From: Egicoccus sp. AB-alg6-2
GTDB lineage: Bacteria > Actinomycetota > Nitriliruptoria > Nitriliruptorales > Nitriliruptoraceae
Length of the DNA stretch: 64,000 bases
NCBI RefSeq assembly: GCF_041821025.1
Contig: NZ_JBGUAY010000004.1
Span: 372,001-436,000 of the forward strand
Direction: 5' to 3'
The translations under genes were made by a program, and so were the position numbers. The notes under the pieces are model-generated. The model saw only the letters and a program-made list of their open reading frames with translations. It was not told where the DNA came from and made no database searches. Shown here piece by piece: positions 9,833-34,565 of this stretch. Position 1 is the stretch's first letter. Every line of letters starts with the position of its first letter.

Positions 9833-9885
9833 ACCGTCCCTCCCGGGCGTCGGCCGGCCGCGCTGCCATGGTGGGCGACGAAGAA

Positions 9886-9915
9886 GCCCCGCCCGAGCGG
9901 AAGCTCGGGCGGGGC
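9886..9915. terminator. Strong hairpin between the PBP gene and the tRNA
   Basis: A perfect 13-bp stem (GCCCCGCCCGAGC with its complement) closes a four-base GGAA loop. On the minus strand it is followed by TTCTTCG. It lies between the convergent ends of the penicillin-binding protein gene and tRNA-Val and probably terminates both. Confidence 0.85.
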
Positions 9916-9926
9916 GTCGACCGGGG

Positions 9927-9998
9927 TGGGCACGGGGGGTATCGAACCTCCGACCTCTGCCGTGTGAAGGCAGCGCTCTCCCACTGAGCTACGTGCCC
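9927..9998 (-). tRNA. tRNA-Val (anticodon CAC)
   Basis: The cloverleaf is complete on the minus strand. The acceptor stem GGGCACG pairs with CGTGCCC, the D-arm is GCTC/GAGC, and the anticodon stem CTGCC/GGCAG holds the seven-base loop TTCACAC with anticodon CAC (valine, GTG codons). The T-arm is GGAGG-TTCGATA-CCCCC, which leaves an A-C mismatch in the middle of the T stem. The discriminator is A and CCA is not encoded (CCC follows). The gene lies 33 bp downstream of the histidine kinase gene on the same strand, so processing from a longer transcript is possible. Confidence 0.95.
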
Positions 9999-10031
9999 CG
10001 GGCGGCGCGCACCGTACCGCTGCGGGCCTCG

Positions 10032-11168
10032 CTAGGCCAACCGGTCCGTGGCGGACGCCACCGTCAGTTCGAAGGCGCCGTCCGACCAGGTGACGTCGCC
10101 GCCGTGTGCCCGTGCGACCCCGCGGGCGATCGCGAGGCCGAGCCCGGACCCACCCCGGTCGTCGAGGGAGACGAAGCGGTCGAACACGGCCTCCTCGGTC
10201 CCCGGCGCCAGACCGGGCCCGTCGTCGCCGACGCGCAGCGCCGCGCCACCGTCCTCGGTGGCATGGAGCGCCAGGGTGACCTCGCTGCGGGCGTGTCGCC
10301 GGGCGTTGTCGAGCAGGTTCGCGACGGCCTCGCGCAGCCCGTCGCCGTCGACCGCCACCACCAGGCGATCGGGCGCGGTCAGGTGCACCGACAGCGACGG
10401 TGCGAGCGCCTGTTGTCGTTCGATCTCCTCGCCGAGGAGCGCCACCAGGTCGACCGGGTTCCTCGCGGGCTCCTCCCCGCGATCGAGGTGGGCGACGCGG
10501 AGGAGATGGTCGAGCAGGCGTCCGGTCCGGGCCGCCTCGCGCGCCAGGTGGCCGAGCAACTGGTCCTGATGCGCGGGCGCGGGGCTGCGCAGGAGCGCCT
10601 CGCTGGCCGCCCGGAGCCCGGCCACCGGGGTGCGCAGCTGGTGGGCGGCGTCGGCCAGGAAGCGCCGCGACCGCGCCTCGGCCTGTCTTGCGGTCTGCAG
10701 CGCCTCGTCGAGCGGACGCAGCACCCGGTTCGCGAAGACGCCGAGCACCATGAGCGCGGCGAGAACGGCCACCAGCGATCCGGCGCCGATGGCGACGTAC
10801 ACCCGCTGCAGGGTGGCCTCGACCCCCGCACCGCTGACGAGCACCTCGACCTCGGTACCGTCGGGGCGCGTGACGGTGCGGCGCAAGTTCGGCTCGCTGA
10901 GCACCTCCGGGCGGCTGACGAGCCGTCGGCCGTCCGGCGCCGTGACCACCGCTGGGATGTCCCGTCGCTCCAGGGTGGCGTGCAGCTGGTCCGGGCTGCG
11001 CCCACCGAGCTCCTCCACCAGCGCGACCCGGGCCCCGAGCGCCCGCTCGAGCTGGCTGTCCAGCTCCTCGCGCAGGGTCAGGATCATCGCGAGTGCACCG
11101 ACCAGCACGCCGACCGTCACGATGGCGACGAAGAACATCACCAGGCGGTGGCGCAGGGAGCGCAGCAT
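10032..11168 (-). CDS. Sensor histidine kinase, OmpR-type partner (378 aa)
   Basis: This membrane-bound histidine kinase has spans at about 8-30 and 124-146 enclosing an extracytoplasmic sensor of about 95 residues, then a HAMP-like linker. The HisKA helix FLADAAHQLRTPVAGLR carries the phospho-acceptor about H176, and the HATPase domain has the N-box NLLDNARRHA and the G-boxes GDDGPGL and GSGLGLAIARG. The ATG at 11168 overlaps the stop of the response regulator gene as ATGA, so the two form one unit. The sensor domain has no recognised ligand motif. The AxxLRTPV phosphorylation box is typical of actinobacterial CutS/TcrY-like kinases. Confidence 0.92.
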   Translation of the reverse strand: MLRSLRHRLVMFFVAIVTVGVLVGALAMILTLREELDSQLERALGARVALVEELGGRSPDQLHATLERRDIPAVVTAPDGRRLVSRPEVLSEPNLRRTVTRPDGTEVEVLVSGAGVEATLQRVYVAIGAGSLVAVLAALMVLGVFANRVLRPLDEALQTARQAEARSRRFLADAAHQLRTPVAGLRAASEALLRSPAPAHQDQLLGHLAREAARTGRLLDHLLRVAHLDRGEEPARNPVDLVALLGEEIERQQALAPSLSVHLTAPDRLVVAVDGDGLREAVANLLDNARRHARSEVTLALHATEDGGAALRVGDDGPGLAPGTEEAVFDRFVSLDDRGGSGLGLAIARGVARAHGGDVTWSDGAFELTVASATDRLA

Positions 11169-24258: not shown

Positions 24259-24741
24259 ATGGAGCGCACGATCAGAATCTTCCTGCCGGTCCCCGGCGAG
24301 CCGCTGGCGTCGTTGCGCGCGTTCCTCGACGAGCCCGTCCGCTGGCTGCCCGAGGCACGGCTGGGGCCGGCGGGCCTGCTGTCGACCGTGCGCGCCGGCG
24401 GCATGGCCCGCTCCGTCCTCGTCCGGGTCGGCGCGCCGTGGGTGGTCGGCTCGACCCACTGGCGCTCCCTGCGCTGGGACCCCCTCAACGAGGAAGCCGG
24501 GCGCCCCGATCGCCTGCTGCCCGCGTTCGACGGCGAACTCGGACTGCACGTACTCGGCACGGGCCGCGTCACGCTGATCCTCGACGGCCGGTACGTGCCG
24601 CCGGGGGGCAGCGTCGGAGCGGCACTGGACGGGGTCGCACTCGGTCGGTTGGCCAACCGCAGCCTCGAGCGCTTCCTCGAGGACCTCGCGCAGCGGTTGC
24701 GCCACGACGCCGAGACGGCCGTCCCCTCCGTCGTCGGTTAG
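24259..24741 (+). CDS. Conserved-looking protein of unknown function, possible SRPBCC-like fold (160 aa)
   Basis: No family is recognised with certainty. The protein starts MERTIRIFLPVPGEPLASL, and alternating strands with a long C-terminal helix (about 125-155, LANRSLERFLEDLAQRL) fit the outline of SRPBCC/START-like ligand-binding proteins. I choose ATG 24259, preceded by GGAGGTGG, over ATG 24199, which lies at the edge of the upstream palindrome. Its stop overlaps the stop of the convergent histidine kinase gene by 4 bp. Its position next to the GAF kinase/LuxR regulator pair suggests, but does not show, a stress-related role. Confidence 0.6.
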   Translation: MERTIRIFLPVPGEPLASLRAFLDEPVRWLPEARLGPAGLLSTVRAGGMARSVLVRVGAPWVVGSTHWRSLRWDPLNEEAGRPDRLLPAFDGELGLHVLGTGRVTLILDGRYVPPGGSVGAALDGVALGRLANRSLERFLEDLAQRLRHDAETAVPSVVG

Positions 24742-26342
24742 GCGCCTCCCAGGGGGACCCGCCAGCACACCTGGGTGCCGGCTCCGCCGACGCGCGGCGA
24801 CCAGGTCACCTCCCCACCCAGCAGCGCCGCCCGCTCCTGCAGGTTCCGGCGCCCGAAGCCGCTCCCGGGCCTGGGCGGCAGCCCACGTCCGTTGTCGGCG
24901 ACGACCAGGGTCAGACCGACCCCGTCGACGACGACCTCGACCTCGACGTCGTCGGCGTCGGCGTGCTTGGCGACGTTGGTCAACGCCTCGCGCAGCACCG
25001 GCAGCAGCTGTTCGGCCACCTGCGGCGGGACGGTCGTTTCGACCGGCCCGTCGAAACGCACCCGCGGCGAGCGCGGCAGCACGGGGGTCAGTTCGTCGAC
25101 CAGTTCGAGCACCGCGTGCCGGATACCGCCGGTCGCGGTCGGGTCCGACTGTAGTGCGAAGATCGTGGTCCGGATCTCCTTCACGGTGACATCGATCTCG
25201 TCCACCGCGCGCTCGATCCGCTCGATGACGTCCGGTCGACCCTCGGCCCGCTTCAGGGTCGCCTGCAGCGACAACCCCGTGGCGAACAGGCGCTGGATCA
25301 CGGTGTCGTGCAGGTCGCGGCCGATGCGCTCGCGCTCCTCGACCAGCGACATCCGCTGGAGTTCGGCGCGGGCGCGCTCGGTCGTCAGCACCAGGCTGGC
25401 CTGGGCGGCGAAGCCCGACATGATGGCCTCGTCACGTCGCGTGAGACCGGCGAGCCGCATCACGCCGAGTGCCGCGACGACCTCGTCGCCGGCCCGCAGC
25501 GGTACCCACAGCATCGCGCCCTCGCCGAAGACGGGGCCACGCTCACCACGCACGACCGCGCCCTCGAGCAGGCTGCCCCAGGCCGGCCCCTCGGTGGCGG
25601 GCAGGAAGCCCGGGGTCGGGCCCTCCTGCCCCGCCGACGCGAGGATCCACAGGCCGTCCTCGTGCGGCCCGACGACACACGCCGCGTCGCCGTCGACGAG
25701 GCGCAGAGCGAAGTCGGCGAGGCGCCCCCGCACCTCGCTCACGGGCGCACCGGCGAGCGCAGCGGTGGTGACCTCCAGCACGGCGTCTCGCCAGCGCTCA
25801 CGCTGGCTCAGGTCGTCGTAGAGGCGGGCGTGCTCGATGGCGGTCCCTGCGACCGCGGCGAGGCCGACGACGAGGTCCTCGTCCTCCTGGGTGAAGGACC
25901 CGCCGCCGCGCTTCTCGGCCAGGTACAGGTTGCCGAAGGCGCGTCCGCGGACCCGGACGGGCGCGCCGAGGAAGCCGTGCATGGGCGGATGGTTGGGCGG
26001 AAACCCGTACGACTTCGGGTGGGCGGTGATGTCGTCGAGCCGCACCGGCTCGGGTTGCTCGATCAGCAGCCCGAGGACCCCGCGTCCGGCCGGCAGGTTG
26101 CCGATCGCGGCGGCCGTCTCGGCGTCGACGCCCCGGTGCACGAAGGCGGACAGCCCGTCACCGTCCTCGGCGATGACCCCGAGCGCGCCGTACTTCGCCG
26201 CCACGAGATCGCAGGCGGCCTCCACGACCCGTCCCAGCACGGCCTCGAGATCGAGGTCCACCGTGACGGCGAGCACCGCGTCCAGGACCTGGGCGGCGCG
26301 GGGGTCCAACGCGTCGCTGCCGAGACCGTTCGTGGAGCCCAT
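24738..26342 (-). CDS. GAF-domain sensor histidine kinase, DevS/DosS-like (534 aa)
   Basis: This is a soluble two-component sensor. Two GAF domains (about 25-170 and 185-320) precede a HisKA_3 dimerisation helix with the phospho-acceptor about H345 in GRDLHDTVIQRLFATGLSLQ and an HATPase domain with the N-box NVAKHADA and VADNGRGLPP. The first GAF contains SYGFPPNHPPMHGFLGAPV followed by GNLYLAEKRGG, very close to the mycobacterial DevS/DosT haem GAF signature. That suggests O2, CO, NO or redox sensing, but haem binding cannot be proved from sequence. It is divergent from its presumed regulator, with 71 bp between starts. Confidence 0.92.
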   Translation of the reverse strand: MGSTNGLGSDALDPRAAQVLDAVLAVTVDLDLEAVLGRVVEAACDLVAAKYGALGVIAEDGDGLSAFVHRGVDAETAAAIGNLPAGRGVLGLLIEQPEPVRLDDITAHPKSYGFPPNHPPMHGFLGAPVRVRGRAFGNLYLAEKRGGGSFTQEDEDLVVGLAAVAGTAIEHARLYDDLSQRERWRDAVLEVTTAALAGAPVSEVRGRLADFALRLVDGDAACVVGPHEDGLWILASAGQEGPTPGFLPATEGPAWGSLLEGAVVRGERGPVFGEGAMLWVPLRAGDEVVAALGVMRLAGLTRRDEAIMSGFAAQASLVLTTERARAELQRMSLVEERERIGRDLHDTVIQRLFATGLSLQATLKRAEGRPDVIERIERAVDEIDVTVKEIRTTIFALQSDPTATGGIRHAVLELVDELTPVLPRSPRVRFDGPVETTVPPQVAEQLLPVLREALTNVAKHADADDVEVEVVVDGVGLTLVVADNGRGLPPRPGSGFGRRNLQERAALLGGEVTWSPRVGGAGTQVCWRVPLGGA

Positions 26343-26413
26343 CGGTGTACCTTTGCGTCCGGCTGCAGCCCGACACCCTACTGTTGCCCTCCCCCTGCCC
26401 ATGGAGTCTGCTG

Positions 26414-27061
26414 GTGGCCGAGACCGTGCGCGTCTTCCTCGTCGACGACCACGAGGTGGTCCGGCGGGGACTCCGGGACCTCATCGACGCCGAGGACGAC
26501 CTCGAGGTTGTCGGTGACGCCGCCAGTGCGGGAATGGCGCTGGCCGGTATCGCCCAGACCTCGCCCGACGTCGCCCTGCTCGACGTGCGGTTGCCGGACG
26601 GCAACGGGGTCGAGATCTGCCGTGACGTGCGTGCCCGTGATCCACGGATCGCGTGCCTGATGCTGACCTCGTTCGGCGACGACGAGGCGCTGTTCGACGC
26701 GATCATGGCCGGCGCGGCCGGGTACCTGCTCAAGGACGTACGCGGTCCCGACCTGCTCGACGCGATCCGGCGGGTGGCGACGGGCGACTCGCTGCTCGAC
26801 CCCGCGGTCACCGGCAAGGTGCTCGAGCGCCTCCGCCGCGGCGACGAGGAGGACCCGCGGCTTCGCTCGCTGTCCGAACAGGAGCGGCGGATCCTGTCCC
26901 TCATCGCGGAGGGTCTGACCAACCGGCAGATCGCCGAGCGGATGCACCTCGCCGAGAAGACGGTGAAGAACTACGTGTCCAACCTGCTCGCGAAGCTCGG
27001 CATGCAACGCCGTACCGAGGCCGCGGTCTTCTACACCCAGGTCGAGCGCGGCGAGGCCTGA
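26414..27061 (+). CDS. NarL/LuxR-family response regulator, DevR-like (215 aa)
   Basis: The receiver domain has DDHEVVRRGL at its start, the phospho-acceptor about D57 in ALLDVRLPDGNG, and LLKDV with the conserved lysine. The LuxR-type HTH (about 150-212) includes LSEQERRILSLIAEGLTNRQ and EKTVKNYVSNLLAKLGM, nearly identical in pattern to DevR/DosR. A GTG start at 26414 with GGAG seven bases upstream removes an unconserved extension. It is divergent from the DevS-like kinase and is its likely partner. The genes just downstream (FMN-binding protein, copper oxidase) are plausible targets by position. Confidence 0.93.
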   Translation: MAETVRVFLVDDHEVVRRGLRDLIDAEDDLEVVGDAASAGMALAGIAQTSPDVALLDVRLPDGNGVEICRDVRARDPRIACLMLTSFGDDEALFDAIMAGAAGYLLKDVRGPDLLDAIRRVATGDSLLDPAVTGKVLERLRRGDEEDPRLRSLSEQERRILSLIAEGLTNRQIAERMHLAEKTVKNYVSNLLAKLGMQRRTEAAVFYTQVERGEA

Positions 27062-27756: not shown

Positions 27757-29160
27757 ATGTCCGAGGAACGTACGGTCGGCGCGATCGCCGTCGCGGTCGT
27801 GGCGCTGGTCGCGCTGGTGCTCAGCGCCGGCGCACTGATCACCGCTGCGAACGGCACGGGCGGAAGTGCTCCGGCGCTGGCCGTCGCGGCCGCCAGCAGC
27901 GACGCACCCATCGAGGTCTCGGTCGAGCTGACCGAGTTCGCCATCACGCCGAGCAGCATCGAGATCGCTGCGAGCGGCAGCCTGCTGGTCACCAACGGCG
28001 GCGTCGCGCAGCACGACCTCGCCGTCGTGGACACCGGCCTGGCGACGCCGATGCTCAACGCGGGTGAGTCGGCCACGCTGGACCTGTCGTCGCTGGAGCC
28101 CGGCACCTACGACATCCTGTGCACGGTCGCCGGCCACGAGGCCGGAGGCATGAAGGGCACGCTGACGGTCGTCGGCACCGGCACGCAGCCGGCGGCCGCA
28201 GACGCCGGCGACGACGCCAACGGCGGACACGGCGACCACGGCGCCGACACCGACTGGGCCGCGCTCGACGCCGCCATGCACGACACCATCCTCGAGTTCC
28301 CCGCCGCGACCGAGGGCCTGGGCAACCAGCCCCTCGAGCCGACCATCCTCGAGGACGGCACGAAGCGGTTCGAGCTCACCGCCGAGATCATCGACTGGGA
28401 GGTCGCTCCCGGCAAGGTCGTCGAGGGATGGGCCTACAACGGCCAGATCCCGGGCCCGATGATCCAGACCCAGCCCGGCGACAAGGTCGAGGTCGTCGTC
28501 ACCAACAAGCTGCCCCTGGGCACGGACGTGCACTGGCACGGCCTGATCGTGCCCAACGCCCAGGACGGGGTCTCGCCGCTCACGCAGGAGCTGATCGAGC
28601 CGGGGGAGAGCCACACCTATGCGTTCACGACCGAGGAGGCGGCGGTCAACATGTACCACCCGCACCACCACGCCCAGATGAAGGTCCCGAACGGCATGTG
28701 GGGCGTGTTCCTCGTCGGCGACCTGCCCATGCCGGAGGCTGGCAGCGTGATCGGCGGCAAGACCCTGCCCGAGGACATGACCGTCGACCAGGTCGTGCCG
28801 ATGGTGGTCAACGACGCCGGCACGATCGGGATGAGCCTCAACGGCAAGTCGTTCCCCGCCACCGCACCGATCGTGGCGAAGAAGGGCGACAACATCCTGC
28901 TGCACTACTACAACGAGGGCTACCAGATCCACCCGATGCACCTGCACGGCATGCCGCAGCTGGTGGTCGCCAAGGACGGCTACCCGCTCGACCAGCCCTA
29001 CTGGTCCGACACCGTCAACGTGGCACCGGGTGAGCGCTTCTCGGTCCTCATCCCCGCCGAGCACGCGGGCGTGTGGGCGTTCCACTGCCACATCCTCACG
29101 CACGCCGAGAGCGACGAGGGCATGTACGGCATGGTCACCGCCCTCATCGTCGAGGAGTGA
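27757..29160 (+). CDS. Three-cupredoxin multicopper oxidase (467 aa)
   Basis: This exported copper protein has a hydrophobic anchor or signal at about 8-31. The first cupredoxin domain (about 52-140) carries its own type 1 site: H86, C122, H127 and M132. A two-domain multicopper oxidase core follows, with HWHG (259-262), HPHHH (301-305), HPMHLHG (392-398) and HCHILTHAESDEGM (443-456). That last motif supplies the trinuclear ligands and a Met-type T1 site in the final domain (type B layout). It would oxidise a substrate (possibly Cu(I), an electron carrier or phenolics) with O2. GGAGAGACGAC precedes ATG 27757, and a strong terminator follows. The extra N-terminal cupredoxin may deliver electrons. 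Confidence 0.9.
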   Translation: MSEERTVGAIAVAVVALVALVLSAGALITAANGTGGSAPALAVAAASSDAPIEVSVELTEFAITPSSIEIAASGSLLVTNGGVAQHDLAVVDTGLATPMLNAGESATLDLSSLEPGTYDILCTVAGHEAGGMKGTLTVVGTGTQPAAADAGDDANGGHGDHGADTDWAALDAAMHDTILEFPAATEGLGNQPLEPTILEDGTKRFELTAEIIDWEVAPGKVVEGWAYNGQIPGPMIQTQPGDKVEVVVTNKLPLGTDVHWHGLIVPNAQDGVSPLTQELIEPGESHTYAFTTEEAAVNMYHPHHHAQMKVPNGMWGVFLVGDLPMPEAGSVIGGKTLPEDMTVDQVVPMVVNDAGTIGMSLNGKSFPATAPIVAKKGDNILLHYYNEGYQIHPMHLHGMPQLVVAKDGYPLDQPYWSDTVNVAPGERFSVLIPAEHAGVWAFHCHILTHAESDEGMYGMVTALIVEE

Positions 29161-30111: not shown

Positions 30112-31251
30112 TCAGATCGCCGTGAACCAGCCCATCGCACCGCGCTCGGCCATGTGGTGCTGATGCGGGTGGAACATGTAGCGACCCCGTGTCGGCAGCC
30201 GGAACTCCAGCATCGCGCGCTCGCCCTGCCCGAGACTGACCACGTCGGTGTGCTCGTCGGGCGCCTCCCCCGTTCCCGACAGGTACACGTCGAACGTCTG
30301 GGCGTGCAGGTGGAAGCTGGCGAGCGGCTCACCCTCGACGAAATTCACCAGGTAGACCCGGACCAGGTCGCCGGCCGGCACCCGGACCGGGTGGCGGTCG
30401 TAGAGCCCGCACACCCCGTTGTAGGCGTAGACGTCGTTGCGCCCGTTGCCGGTCAGGTCGAAGCCGTCGAGGACCAGCACCACCTCGACGGCGGGTTCGC
30501 GACCACGCGCGGGGTCGACCACGAGCACGCCGTGCAGACCGCGGCGCACGTGCTCGGCGTAGGGCGGCAGATGGCAGTGGTACGGATGCAGTCCGACCGG
30601 GCCCGCCTCGACGTCGTAGACGAAGGAACCGCCGGGCGGAATCGGCTCCCAGCCGTCCATCTGCGGGTCGTGGCTCCCATGCAGGTGCAGGTTGTGACCT
30701 TGCCCGGTCCGGTTGTCGACGGTGATGCGCAGTCGGTCCCCCACCGTCGCGCGCAGGACCGGCCCGGGGACACGACCGCCGTACATCCAGGCGTCGATCG
30801 TGGCCCCGTCGGCAACGCTCCAGTGGCCCTCGGTCACCGGCAGGACCAGCTCCCGCCGGCGGCCGGGTGCTGCCGGGTCCGCAGCCGGCGGATGCGTCAG
30901 GTCGGCGATCAGATCGTCGTCGAGGTCGCGCGGCGGTTGGGGCCCGTGGCCGTACCCGCCACGGACGAGACCGAGCGCCTCGAGATCCGCGTGGGCGTCG
31001 ATGCCGTGGTCATGGCCCGCGCCCGGGGCGTAGTCGTCCGCGGGGGCGGCGTGCCCATGGCCACCCGACGGCTGTCCGGCAGCGACGCTGCGTCCGAAGG
31101 CAGCGCCGCCGAGCAGGAGGGCGCCGCCGAGGCCGCCGCCCTGCAGCAGTCGCCGGCGACCGAGGCGACGCGACCCGTCCCCGGCGCGGTCGACGTCGGG
31201 CACCGGGACGTCGTCCCCCGCCGCGTCGTCGTGCCGGGGCCGCATGCTCAC
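30112..31251 (-). CDS. Tat-exported two-domain multicopper oxidase, T1 site in domain 1 (379 aa)
   Basis: A twin-arginine signal (RRLGRRRLLQ followed by a hydrophobic stretch, about 28-58) indicates folded export. After a His-rich linker come HNLHLHG (186-192) and HPYHCH (222-227) with H234 in domain 1, then FHLHAQ (313-318) and HPHQHH (361-366) in domain 2. The only Cys-His T1 motif is in domain 1 (type C layout). Its axial position is Leu (about L239) where Met is common, which usually raises the redox potential. The GTG 31251 start overlaps the upstream lipoprotein stop as GTGA, so they are coupled. Substrate unknown; metal or phenol oxidation are options. Confidence 0.87.
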   Translation of the reverse strand: MSMRPRHDDAAGDDVPVPDVDRAGDGSRRLGRRRLLQGGGLGGALLLGGAAFGRSVAAGQPSGGHGHAAPADDYAPGAGHDHGIDAHADLEALGLVRGGYGHGPQPPRDLDDDLIADLTHPPAADPAAPGRRRELVLPVTEGHWSVADGATIDAWMYGGRVPGPVLRATVGDRLRITVDNRTGQGHNLHLHGSHDPQMDGWEPIPPGGSFVYDVEAGPVGLHPYHCHLPPYAEHVRRGLHGVLVVDPARGREPAVEVVLVLDGFDLTGNGRNDVYAYNGVCGLYDRHPVRVPAGDLVRVYLVNFVEGEPLASFHLHAQTFDVYLSGTGEAPDEHTDVVSLGQGERAMLEFRLPTRGRYMFHPHQHHMAERGAMGWFTAI

Positions 31252-33269
31252 AGCACACCGGCTTGGAGGGCGCCGATGCCCACCAGCGCGGGCGCGAGCA
31301 GGAGCACGGTCGCCAGTCCAGCCACGACGATCCCCCACCGCCGCCGTCGTGACGCCCACCCACGTGCGCGGACGATCGCGACCGACGACGTGACCAGGCT
31401 GACCACCGCTGCCGCCGGCCACCCGAATGCGAGCGTCAGCAGCGCCGGCACGGCCACCGCGACCAGCCATGCGGTGCGAGCCGGCCCCGGCCGGCGCAGA
31501 ACGGCGACGACGGCGGCGAGTGCGAGTGCCGCGATCGCGAGCATCGGCAGGAACCAACCGGTGACGGCGAAGTAGGCCGGCCAACCACGCAGGTCCCGCA
31601 CGGTGAACCCGGCCACGCGCGTGGCAGCGGACTCGCGCACCTCGCCGTCGAGTTGTGGACGCGTGATGTCGCCGAGGTCGACCCCGTCGTAGCGTGCGAA
31701 CACGTCAACGGCGGGCACGACCGGCGCATCGGCACCCCCCGGCAACTGCCCGAGGGTGCCTGGCTCGGGAACCAGGTCCATGTGCTGGGCGCGACGCTCG
31801 CCCGGGAAGTGCCCCAGCTGTCCCACCATCAGCAACGTGTCACGGAAGGTGCCGAGGCTCGGCAGGCTGAGGCCGTCGCAGGGACGGGTCCGCTCCAGCA
31901 GGGCGGGCGCGGTCCGCCGCACGTCGTTGTCGGCGAAGCAGTCGCCGCCGTTCTGGCTCGGCGACACCGTGGCGAGGTCGGCTCGTCCCGATCCGTGCAC
32001 CAGGTTGCCGGTGACGACGTTGCCTCCCGGCATCCAGAAGTTGCGGTGCAGGTTCGGCGTCGCGGCGATGCCGTACCCGGGATGGTGCAGCACGACGTTG
32101 TCGCGGACCTCGTGGTGGACGCCGCCGGCGAGCACGATCCCGTGTCCGAATGCGGGCCAGGTCGCCGACACCACCGGTGCGTCGAAGTTGCCGTTGTCCG
32201 CCACGTAGTTGCCGGCGATCGTGGCGCCCCGCGATGGTGCGTACCGTTGCGAGTCCAGCGTGTTGGGCACGATGCCGGCGCCGTTGAGCCGCCACGTCGA
32301 GTTGACGAGATAGAGCGAGTTGCTGGCGTTGGTGCCGGAGAAACCGAACCCGTTCCACTCCGCGGTGACGCGGTTGAGGATCGTGCGACAGTCCTCGCAC
32401 TGGCCGACGTAGTAGCCGCCGTCGGCCGAACCGGAGGCATACGAGTCCTCGAAGACGCCGTCGACCGAGTCGAAGGCGTAGATGCCGTAGGTACCGGCGT
32501 TGATGGAGGTGAGGTGGCTTCCGCGGAACCCCGTCACCCCGTCCCAGTAGAAGCCGTTGTTGGTGACGTCGCGCACCGTCATGTTCTCGACCGCGACGCC
32601 GTCCGCCGTCACCATCACGCCCATCTCACGCTCGAACTGGCCGTCGACGATCACCGCGTTGCGATCGGTCCCGCGCACGACGATCTGGGGCGTGGTGACC
32701 GTGACCTGCTCGGCGTAGACCCCTGGCTCGACGAGCACCAGGTCACCCGGCTCGGCTGCGTCGACGGCGGTCTGGATCGTCGGATACTCCTCGGGCACCA
32801 GGCGCGTGCGACCGGTGGGCGTGACCGGCTCGACGGCGGCGATGCGGGCATCGGTGGCGGTGGTGTCCGCGTCCACGGCGGTCATCTCGGGCGAAGCACC
32901 GTCACCGACCGCGAGCGTGGCGACCATGCCACCCGAGGCGTCCGCGGGCGCGTGCAGGCTGCAGTAGATGGTGTAGGTGCCGGCGTCCTCGAGCACCACC
33001 GTGGCCTGCTCGTCGGGATCGACGAGTTCGGTTCCCCACGTGCCGTCCACGTCGAGTGCGTTGTGCGGCACCCGGCCGAGGTTCTCGAACACCACCGTGG
33101 TGCCGGCGGCGACGCTCACCTCGGCCGGTTCGAAGAAGTTGTCGTACATCGCCACGACGACCCGGTCACCGCCGCCACCGGCCTCGCCGCCACCCGAGCA
33201 CCCGGCCAGCACCAGGGCGGTCCCCAGTCCCAGCGCCGTCCGCCGTCCACGCCAACGTCGCCACCCCAC
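31248..33269 (-). CDS. Lipoprotein: cupredoxin, parallel beta-helix and C-terminal membrane spans (673 aa)
   Basis: The lipobox LVLAGC (lipid cysteine about C24) ends the signal peptide. A small blue-copper domain (about 35-120) has candidate ligands H69, C103, H106 and M115. EYPTIQTAVDAAEPGDLVLV opens a right-handed parallel beta-helix (about 155-470) of the NosD/pectin-lyase type, rich in Asn/Gly turns (YGIYAFDSVDG, GYYVGQCEDC). The last roughly 90 residues form two or three membrane spans, an odd addition to a lipoprotein. NosD proteins assist copper-site maturation of nitrous oxide reductase; here the overlapping partner is a multicopper oxidase, so copper handling for it is a reasonable inference. 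GTG 33269 has AAGGGGA upstream. Confidence 0.82.
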   Translation of the reverse strand: MGWRRWRGRRTALGLGTALVLAGCSGGGEAGGGGDRVVVAMYDNFFEPAEVSVAAGTTVVFENLGRVPHNALDVDGTWGTELVDPDEQATVVLEDAGTYTIYCSLHAPADASGGMVATLAVGDGASPEMTAVDADTTATDARIAAVEPVTPTGRTRLVPEEYPTIQTAVDAAEPGDLVLVEPGVYAEQVTVTTPQIVVRGTDRNAVIVDGQFEREMGVMVTADGVAVENMTVRDVTNNGFYWDGVTGFRGSHLTSINAGTYGIYAFDSVDGVFEDSYASGSADGGYYVGQCEDCRTILNRVTAEWNGFGFSGTNASNSLYLVNSTWRLNGAGIVPNTLDSQRYAPSRGATIAGNYVADNGNFDAPVVSATWPAFGHGIVLAGGVHHEVRDNVVLHHPGYGIAATPNLHRNFWMPGGNVVTGNLVHGSGRADLATVSPSQNGGDCFADNDVRRTAPALLERTRPCDGLSLPSLGTFRDTLLMVGQLGHFPGERRAQHMDLVPEPGTLGQLPGGADAPVVPAVDVFARYDGVDLGDITRPQLDGEVRESAATRVAGFTVRDLRGWPAYFAVTGWFLPMLAIAALALAAVVAVLRRPGPARTAWLVAVAVPALLTLAFGWPAAAVVSLVTSSVAIVRARGWASRRRRWGIVVAGLATVLLLAPALVGIGALQAGVL

Positions 33270-33392: not shown

Positions 33393-34565
<1,173 letters not shown>

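Follow-up and report, generated by a model that had tools for sequence, protein, structure and literature searches.

To our knowledge, natural donors have been named for few two-domain multicopper oxidases (MCOs). The solved MCO of Nitrosopumilus (PDB 9cck) unites a two-domain MCO and a C-terminal cupredoxin in one fused chain of 409 residues; no paper on this structure was found in a literature search. Two-domain laccases with a homotrimeric structure have been described, and the term type C is used here as defined in that literature (PMC3192119). On the side of beta-helix proteins, the most closely comparable systems are the TIGR03805 parallel beta-helix proteins together with the SO2930-family diheme cytochromes (TIGR03806), and NosD, an extracytoplasmic beta-helix protein near a copper enzyme.

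In the window, which is the whole 64,000-nucleotide stretch of Egicoccus sp. AB-alg6-2 DNA that was analyzed, two consecutive genes on the reverse strand encode a cupredoxin/beta-helix lipoprotein (P0001) and a type C two-domain MCO (P0002). Both parts of 9cck found a match in this pair: 9cck matched the MCO P0002 at 7e-40, and it was the top PDB match of the lipoprotein-family profile, in the cupredoxin (1.7e-18). Unlike 9cck, which has no beta-helix, the cupredoxin is here carried by a separate beta-helix lipoprotein. Judged by sequence, the locus appears to be a widespread new version of the cupredoxin-MCO theme. A literature search on the combination of cupredoxin, beta-helix and MCO returned nothing relevant, and no description of the lipoprotein family was found in the literature searched.

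A second MCO in the window (27757-29160, forward strand; 467 aa, Pfam) is a fusion in which an N-terminal cupredoxin precedes a two-domain MCO. It differs from the P0001/P0002 pair in being a single chain without a beta-helix, and its MCO part was very distant from P0002 in the tree. Next to this fusion, a small protein, a response regulator (26345-27061, forward strand) and a GAF-type sensor kinase (24738-26342, reverse strand) were observed.

Architecture of the lipoprotein and the oxidase

The P0001 gene (31248..33269, reverse strand, GTG start) encodes 673 aa in which, as a sequence-only reading of this DNA had proposed, a lipobox, a cupredoxin, a beta-helix and C-terminal membrane spans are combined in one protein, according to sequence, Pfam and AlphaFold2. 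All on the reverse strand, the signal peptide with the lipobox LAGC (L21-A22-G23-C24) lies at 33198..33269, the cupredoxin (residues 36-121; PF13473 and PF00127) at 32907..33164, the right-handed beta-helix (about residues 155-446, from Pfam and AlphaFold2) at 31932..32807, and the membrane tail (residues 562-673, helices predicted by AlphaFold2) at 31251..31586. With LAGC present, P0001 is a predicted lipoprotein, and a lipobox was seen in most of its relatives (L026 and L032 were without one). Pfam matches were obtained to Beta_helix (2.7e-11), Cupredoxin_1 (2.1e-6) and Copper-bind (8.3e-6), the latter two above their cut-offs (28.2 vs. 27 bits and 26.6 vs. 21.2 bits, respectively). In the AlphaFold2 model (mean pLDDT 85, pTM 0.80, 34-row alignment), a cupredoxin sandwich (36-121) is followed by the beta-helix (~155-446) and by C-terminal helices at residues 562-591, 596-615, 617-634 and 641-670.

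The blue-copper ligands named in that reading (H69, C103, H106 and M115) were all invariant in 20 relatives (alignment A1), as were C291, C294, C444 and C464; the CxxC of the beta-helix (C291/C294) was present in 102/102 beta-helix relatives. M115 lies 9 residues after H106, vs. 5 in plastocyanin; this distance ranged from 7 to 12 among relatives, with the Met always occurring as Gly-Met in those counted. This loop, longer than that of plastocyanin, counts against an electron-carrier model. Plastocyanins were the top PDB matches of the cupredoxin in a single-sequence search, and cupredoxins were likewise nearest to the N-terminal part in Foldseek. For the beta-helix, the nearest PDB entries in Foldseek were alginate epimerases and lyases (TM-scores of 0.2-0.6, 10-16% identity); such structural matches of P0001 are informative on fold and not on function. 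The membrane tail of P0001 was assigned to no Pfam family and missed the cut-off of PLDc_N (PF13396), the family to which tails of its relatives belong (E about 1e-8). No promoter or terminator was found in a scan of the P0001/P0002 locus.

The oxidase P0002 (30112..31251, reverse strand, GTG start; 379 residues) has a twin-arginine signal and two cupredoxin domains (Cu-oxidase_3 and Cu-oxidase_2 in Pfam), and its top PDB match was 3gdc (E 1e-59). A type-1 site was found in domain 1 only (H186, C226 and H234, with L239 and not Met at the axial position), together with the trinuclear His set H189, H191, H225, H227, H314, H316, H361 and H363; the three type-1 ligands and the trinuclear His were invariant in alignment A2 (17 MCOs), and the assignment agreed with the 3gdc alignment. 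Since domain 2 has the motif HPHQ and no type-1 Cys, P0002 is of type C, and its earlier description as a Tat-exported two-domain MCO of that type was borne out. Of 39 lipoprotein-linked MCOs, 32 had a twin-arginine motif ahead of the core domain, as recognized with a simple pattern. P0002 shares the fold, the domain-1 type-1 site and the trinuclear His set with the type C two-domain MCOs 3gdc and 7rab, but belongs to a separate sub-branch that adjoins the lipoprotein. The 4-bp overlap reported between the P0001 stop and the P0002 start holds with the GTG at 31251; with the alternative ATG at 31245, a 2-bp gap is obtained instead.

Immediately upstream of P0001 lies a MoeZ/ThiF-like gene (33393-34565, reverse strand), and similar genes were observed, in varying orientation, near the relatives L117, L123, L168, L189, L193 and L195. 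Considered as a candidate partner, ThiF/MoeZ was within reach of seven loci, with inconsistent orientation.

Relation of the beta-helix to NosD and TIGR03805

The beta-helix of P0001 had been read as NosD-like, a designation not upheld by profile scores: 34.5 bits were obtained against TIGR04247 (NosD; cut-off 300) and 20 bits against Pfam NosD (PF05048; cut-off 23.6). The nearest profile was TIGR03805 (70.2 bits, cut-off 141.5), which relatives of P0001 matched with 55 to 91 bits. The statement that nos genes are absent was correct for the window, where no nosZ, nosF or nosY was found beside P0001 and the gene pair has no ATPase or permease, but it did not extend to the genome: another contig (C1; L214, G000:C1, about 375-381 kb) carries a cluster of consecutive genes for nosZ, a cupredoxin, nosD, an ABC-type ATPase and a permease-like protein. 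This nosZ scored 761 bits (cut-off 625), and the membrane-plus-beta-helix nosD scored 290 bits (cut-off 300) and, above cut-off, 99.6 bits against Pfam NosD. No convincing similarity between the NosD of the genome and P0001 was detected by BLASTP (E 0.015, single comparison), and a search for NosL found none in the genome. Like NosD, P0001 is an extracytoplasmic beta-helix protein near a copper enzyme, but the NosD system has an ATPase and permease as partners and P0001 has none. An identity of P0001 with NosD was ruled out by the scores, the missing partners and the possession of a separate nosD by the genome.

TIGR03805 proteins, the nearest in profile, resemble P0001 in being paired with a redox domain, which is a cytochrome c in the TIGR03805/TIGR03806 system vs. 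a cupredoxin in P0001. In a myxococcal relative (L233:4096-5322, reverse strand), a true TIGR03805 beta-helix was found fused to a diheme cytochrome c of TIGR03806. Both domains are incomplete, which may reflect an internal deletion between neighboring genes, and CxxC is missing at the motif. The fusion shows that a redox protein accompanies the sister beta-helix family as well.

Conservation of the gene pair

The association between the lipoprotein and the MCO was evaluated in three samples. In 60 related genomes, 19 of which had a full-length relative of P0001, the orthologous MCO was found in 17 of those 19, just downstream wherever contigs allow (in G031 the pair was split by contig ends). 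Profile searches for both proteins in 396 genomes of the phylum (Actinomycetota) matched the lipoprotein in 51 genomes, and the MCO profile gave 10 matches above 500 bits, all of them adjoining the lipoprotein (10/10); the next group of MCOs (343 bits and below) was located elsewhere than the lipoprotein in the sampled genomes. A single-protein scan of named genome contigs yielded no confirmed match, and a profile scan of such contigs retrieved 80 loci, 73 with sufficient downstream sequence. This MCO was present downstream on the same strand in 39 of these 73, from at least five phyla: paired loci were found in Nitriliruptoria, Acidimicrobiia, Spirochaetota, Chloroflexota (a Caldilineaceae member), Myxococcota/deltaproteobacteria and Gemmatimonadota. 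Because many loci come from metagenome bins, single phylum labels can be wrong; the L193 record, titled Bifidobacterium breve, grouped with a sequence from an uncultured member of Actinomycetota, and its label is probably that of a misassigned metagenome bin.

When presence of the MCO was mapped on the beta-helix tree, 7 changes were counted, vs. a mean of 31 after shuffling. In the MCO tree, 42 lipoprotein-linked MCOs were separated from 15 controls and 3 type B MCOs (SH-aLRT 92), and the patristic distances of the partners were correlated (r 0.84; Mantel test, 0/2000 permutations), a value to which species history contributes. A functional tie between lipoprotein and MCO is thus supported, at the level of sequence comparison, by conserved order across phyla, by MCO orthologues occurring solely beside the lipoprotein in the 396-genome sample, and by congruent trees.

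Adjacency was conserved in a part of the loci only: no MCO was found beside the lipoprotein in the other 34 of the 73 named loci. Lineages with an unaccompanied lipoprotein included Pelagibacteraceae (L174, L190, L194 and L208), Ca. Actinomarina (L191, L196, L198, L200, L203, L205, L206 and L209) and the actinobacterial families f12, f17, f33 and f48, as well as two genomes of the same class as the window (G044 and G051). In Pelagibacteraceae, the tail is encoded by a separate 106-aa PLDc_N gene 3' of the cupredoxin-beta-helix gene; a membrane-bound cytochrome c was observed some genes further on. In family f6 (L126, L127 and L128), a tailless cupredoxin-beta-helix protein adjoins a two-domain MCO of type B, with the type-1 motif in domain 2, and this is a second, separate pairing with an MCO. 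Because many lineages keep the lipoprotein without an MCO, and f6 pairs it with a type B enzyme, the earlier suggestion of a lipoprotein dedicated to the oxidase was not supported; the conserved core is the cupredoxin plus the beta-helix, and the MCO is a frequent add-on.

Several architectural variants of the locus were detected. Most Nitriliruptoraceae have, between lipoprotein and MCO, a gene of ~100 aa with three hydrophobic segments that resembles the tail of the lipoprotein itself, with matches to PLDc_N (PF13396) ranging from 9e-8 to under the cut-off; this gene is absent in the window and in L026, L027, L028 and L032. In L117 and in the Acidimicrobiia loci L168, L172, L173 and L195, the cupredoxin is a lipoprotein of its own, and its gene directly precedes one for a beta-helix with tail, with the MCO further downstream; the same split layout was found in L152, L153 and L169, where the MCO was not seen or the contig ends. 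Beta-helix-only relatives (L125, L130-L132) have a separate cupredoxin lipoprotein 1 or 2 genes off; in L130, L131 and L132 a DUF1996-like gene follows the beta-helix-only gene (for L131, Pfam confirmed the DUF1996 assignment). One beta-helix relative without a cupredoxin (L044:8971-10335, reverse strand) has an LPTTG-like sorting motif at its C-terminus. In four of six spirochaete loci (L160, at 9870-10502, L164, L165 and L182), a gene similar to SCO1, a copper chaperone family, lies directly 3' of the MCO; these genes were called by eye from a CPDMCP motif and had no NCBIfam match.

Possible functions of the pair

A full His/Cys/His/Met set is the electron-transfer site of plastocyanin, amicyanin and pseudoazurin, and such a complete set of type-1 ligands points to an electron carrier more than to a chaperone. 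Because of this set, the same-chain cupredoxin of 9cck and the cupredoxin-MCO fusion of the window, the MCO is the most likely recipient of electrons from the lipoprotein. We would give about an even chance to the locus being a two-part extracytoplasmic copper redox module, in which the cupredoxin/beta-helix lipoprotein passes electrons to the oxidase. Through its lipid and C-terminal helices, P0001 would be anchored to the cytoplasmic membrane on the outer side; its cupredoxin would carry single electrons at a type-1 copper bound by the ligands described, and the beta-helix may be a rigid docking or binding arm positioning the cupredoxin against partners. The Tat-exported MCO would dock on P0001, accept electrons at the domain-1 type-1 copper and reduce O2 at the trinuclear cluster, which would lie between subunits. 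The gene pairing and the ligands for copper are observed features, and we infer the direction of electron flow from P0001 to the MCO. The 34 of 73 loci without an adjoining MCO count against such a module; there, the cupredoxin/beta-helix core would have to hand electrons to another acceptor, and the MCO could, for its part, receive electrons from a source other than P0001.

The sequence-only reading had left the choice between copper loading and electron transfer open. For copper loading, P0001 would bind copper at the cupredoxin and the beta-helix CxxC and insert it into the exported apo-MCO, as NosD/NosL do for N2O reductase. NosDFY is required for CuZ maturation (PMC7660919), and in the nos cluster of this genome, too, a copper enzyme (nosZ) is encoded together with a small cupredoxin and with a NosD that combines membrane and beta-helix parts; moreover, the beta-helix of P0001 adjoins a copper enzyme and its CxxC is invariant. 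However, P0001 falls far under the NosD profile cut-off, the pair comes without ATPase or permease and the genome without a detected NosL, a complete type-1 site is more usual in electron carriers than in chaperones, many members of the family have no MCO to load, and at four spirochaete loci the SCO1-like gene could perform the loading. We regard copper loading, although the main rival, as unlikely and electron transfer as better supported, a choice that sequence cannot decide; of the earlier proposal, the functional tie to the MCO was retained and the word dedicated was not.

A role in copper defense, with the MCO as a cuprous oxidase and the lipoprotein holding surplus copper at the membrane, would be comparable to CueO and CopA-type oxidases. 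Several bacterial MCOs oxidize Cu(I), and the SCO1-like gene of spirochaetes would fit such a role, yet no copper exporter or CopC/CopD was recognized among the neighbor genes read, and the streamlined Pelagibacteraceae and Ca. Actinomarina keep the lipoprotein without an MCO, which makes this role improbable. Quite improbable, too, is a beta-helix with an enzymatic or substrate-binding role, perhaps toward carbohydrates, from which electrons would pass through the cupredoxin to the MCO: the alginate epimerases and lyases retrieved by Foldseek and the joining of a true TIGR03805 member to a diheme cytochrome c speak for it, but the TM-scores and identities of those matches indicate no more than a shared fold, a large part of the invariant positions are Gly/Asn, as any beta-helix would have, and no catalytic set was identified. 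That lipoprotein and MCO are functionally unlinked, chance or loose neighbors, would agree with the loci that have no MCO, but this is contradicted by the few changes of the MCO label on the lipoprotein tree, by the recurrence of the pair across phyla on one strand and by the consistent adjacency of the orthologous MCOs in the 396 genomes, so that we consider it highly improbable.

A broader reading, which we hold to be rather improbable, is that the beta-helix with its invariant CxxC collects electrons or substrate in a phylum-spanning periplasmic redox system whose plug-in domain accepts them, this being a cupredoxin here (with an optional type C or B MCO) and a diheme cytochrome c in TIGR03805/TIGR03806. 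The lipoprotein family itself probably constitutes a redox module of wide distribution, for which we found no description and which would work with the MCO where both are present. It represents a copper protein family that extends to streamlined ocean bacteria (Pelagibacteraceae and Ca. Actinomarina) and whose oxidase partner recurs in at least five phyla, and through it two-domain MCOs gain a concrete, directly testable candidate redox partner.
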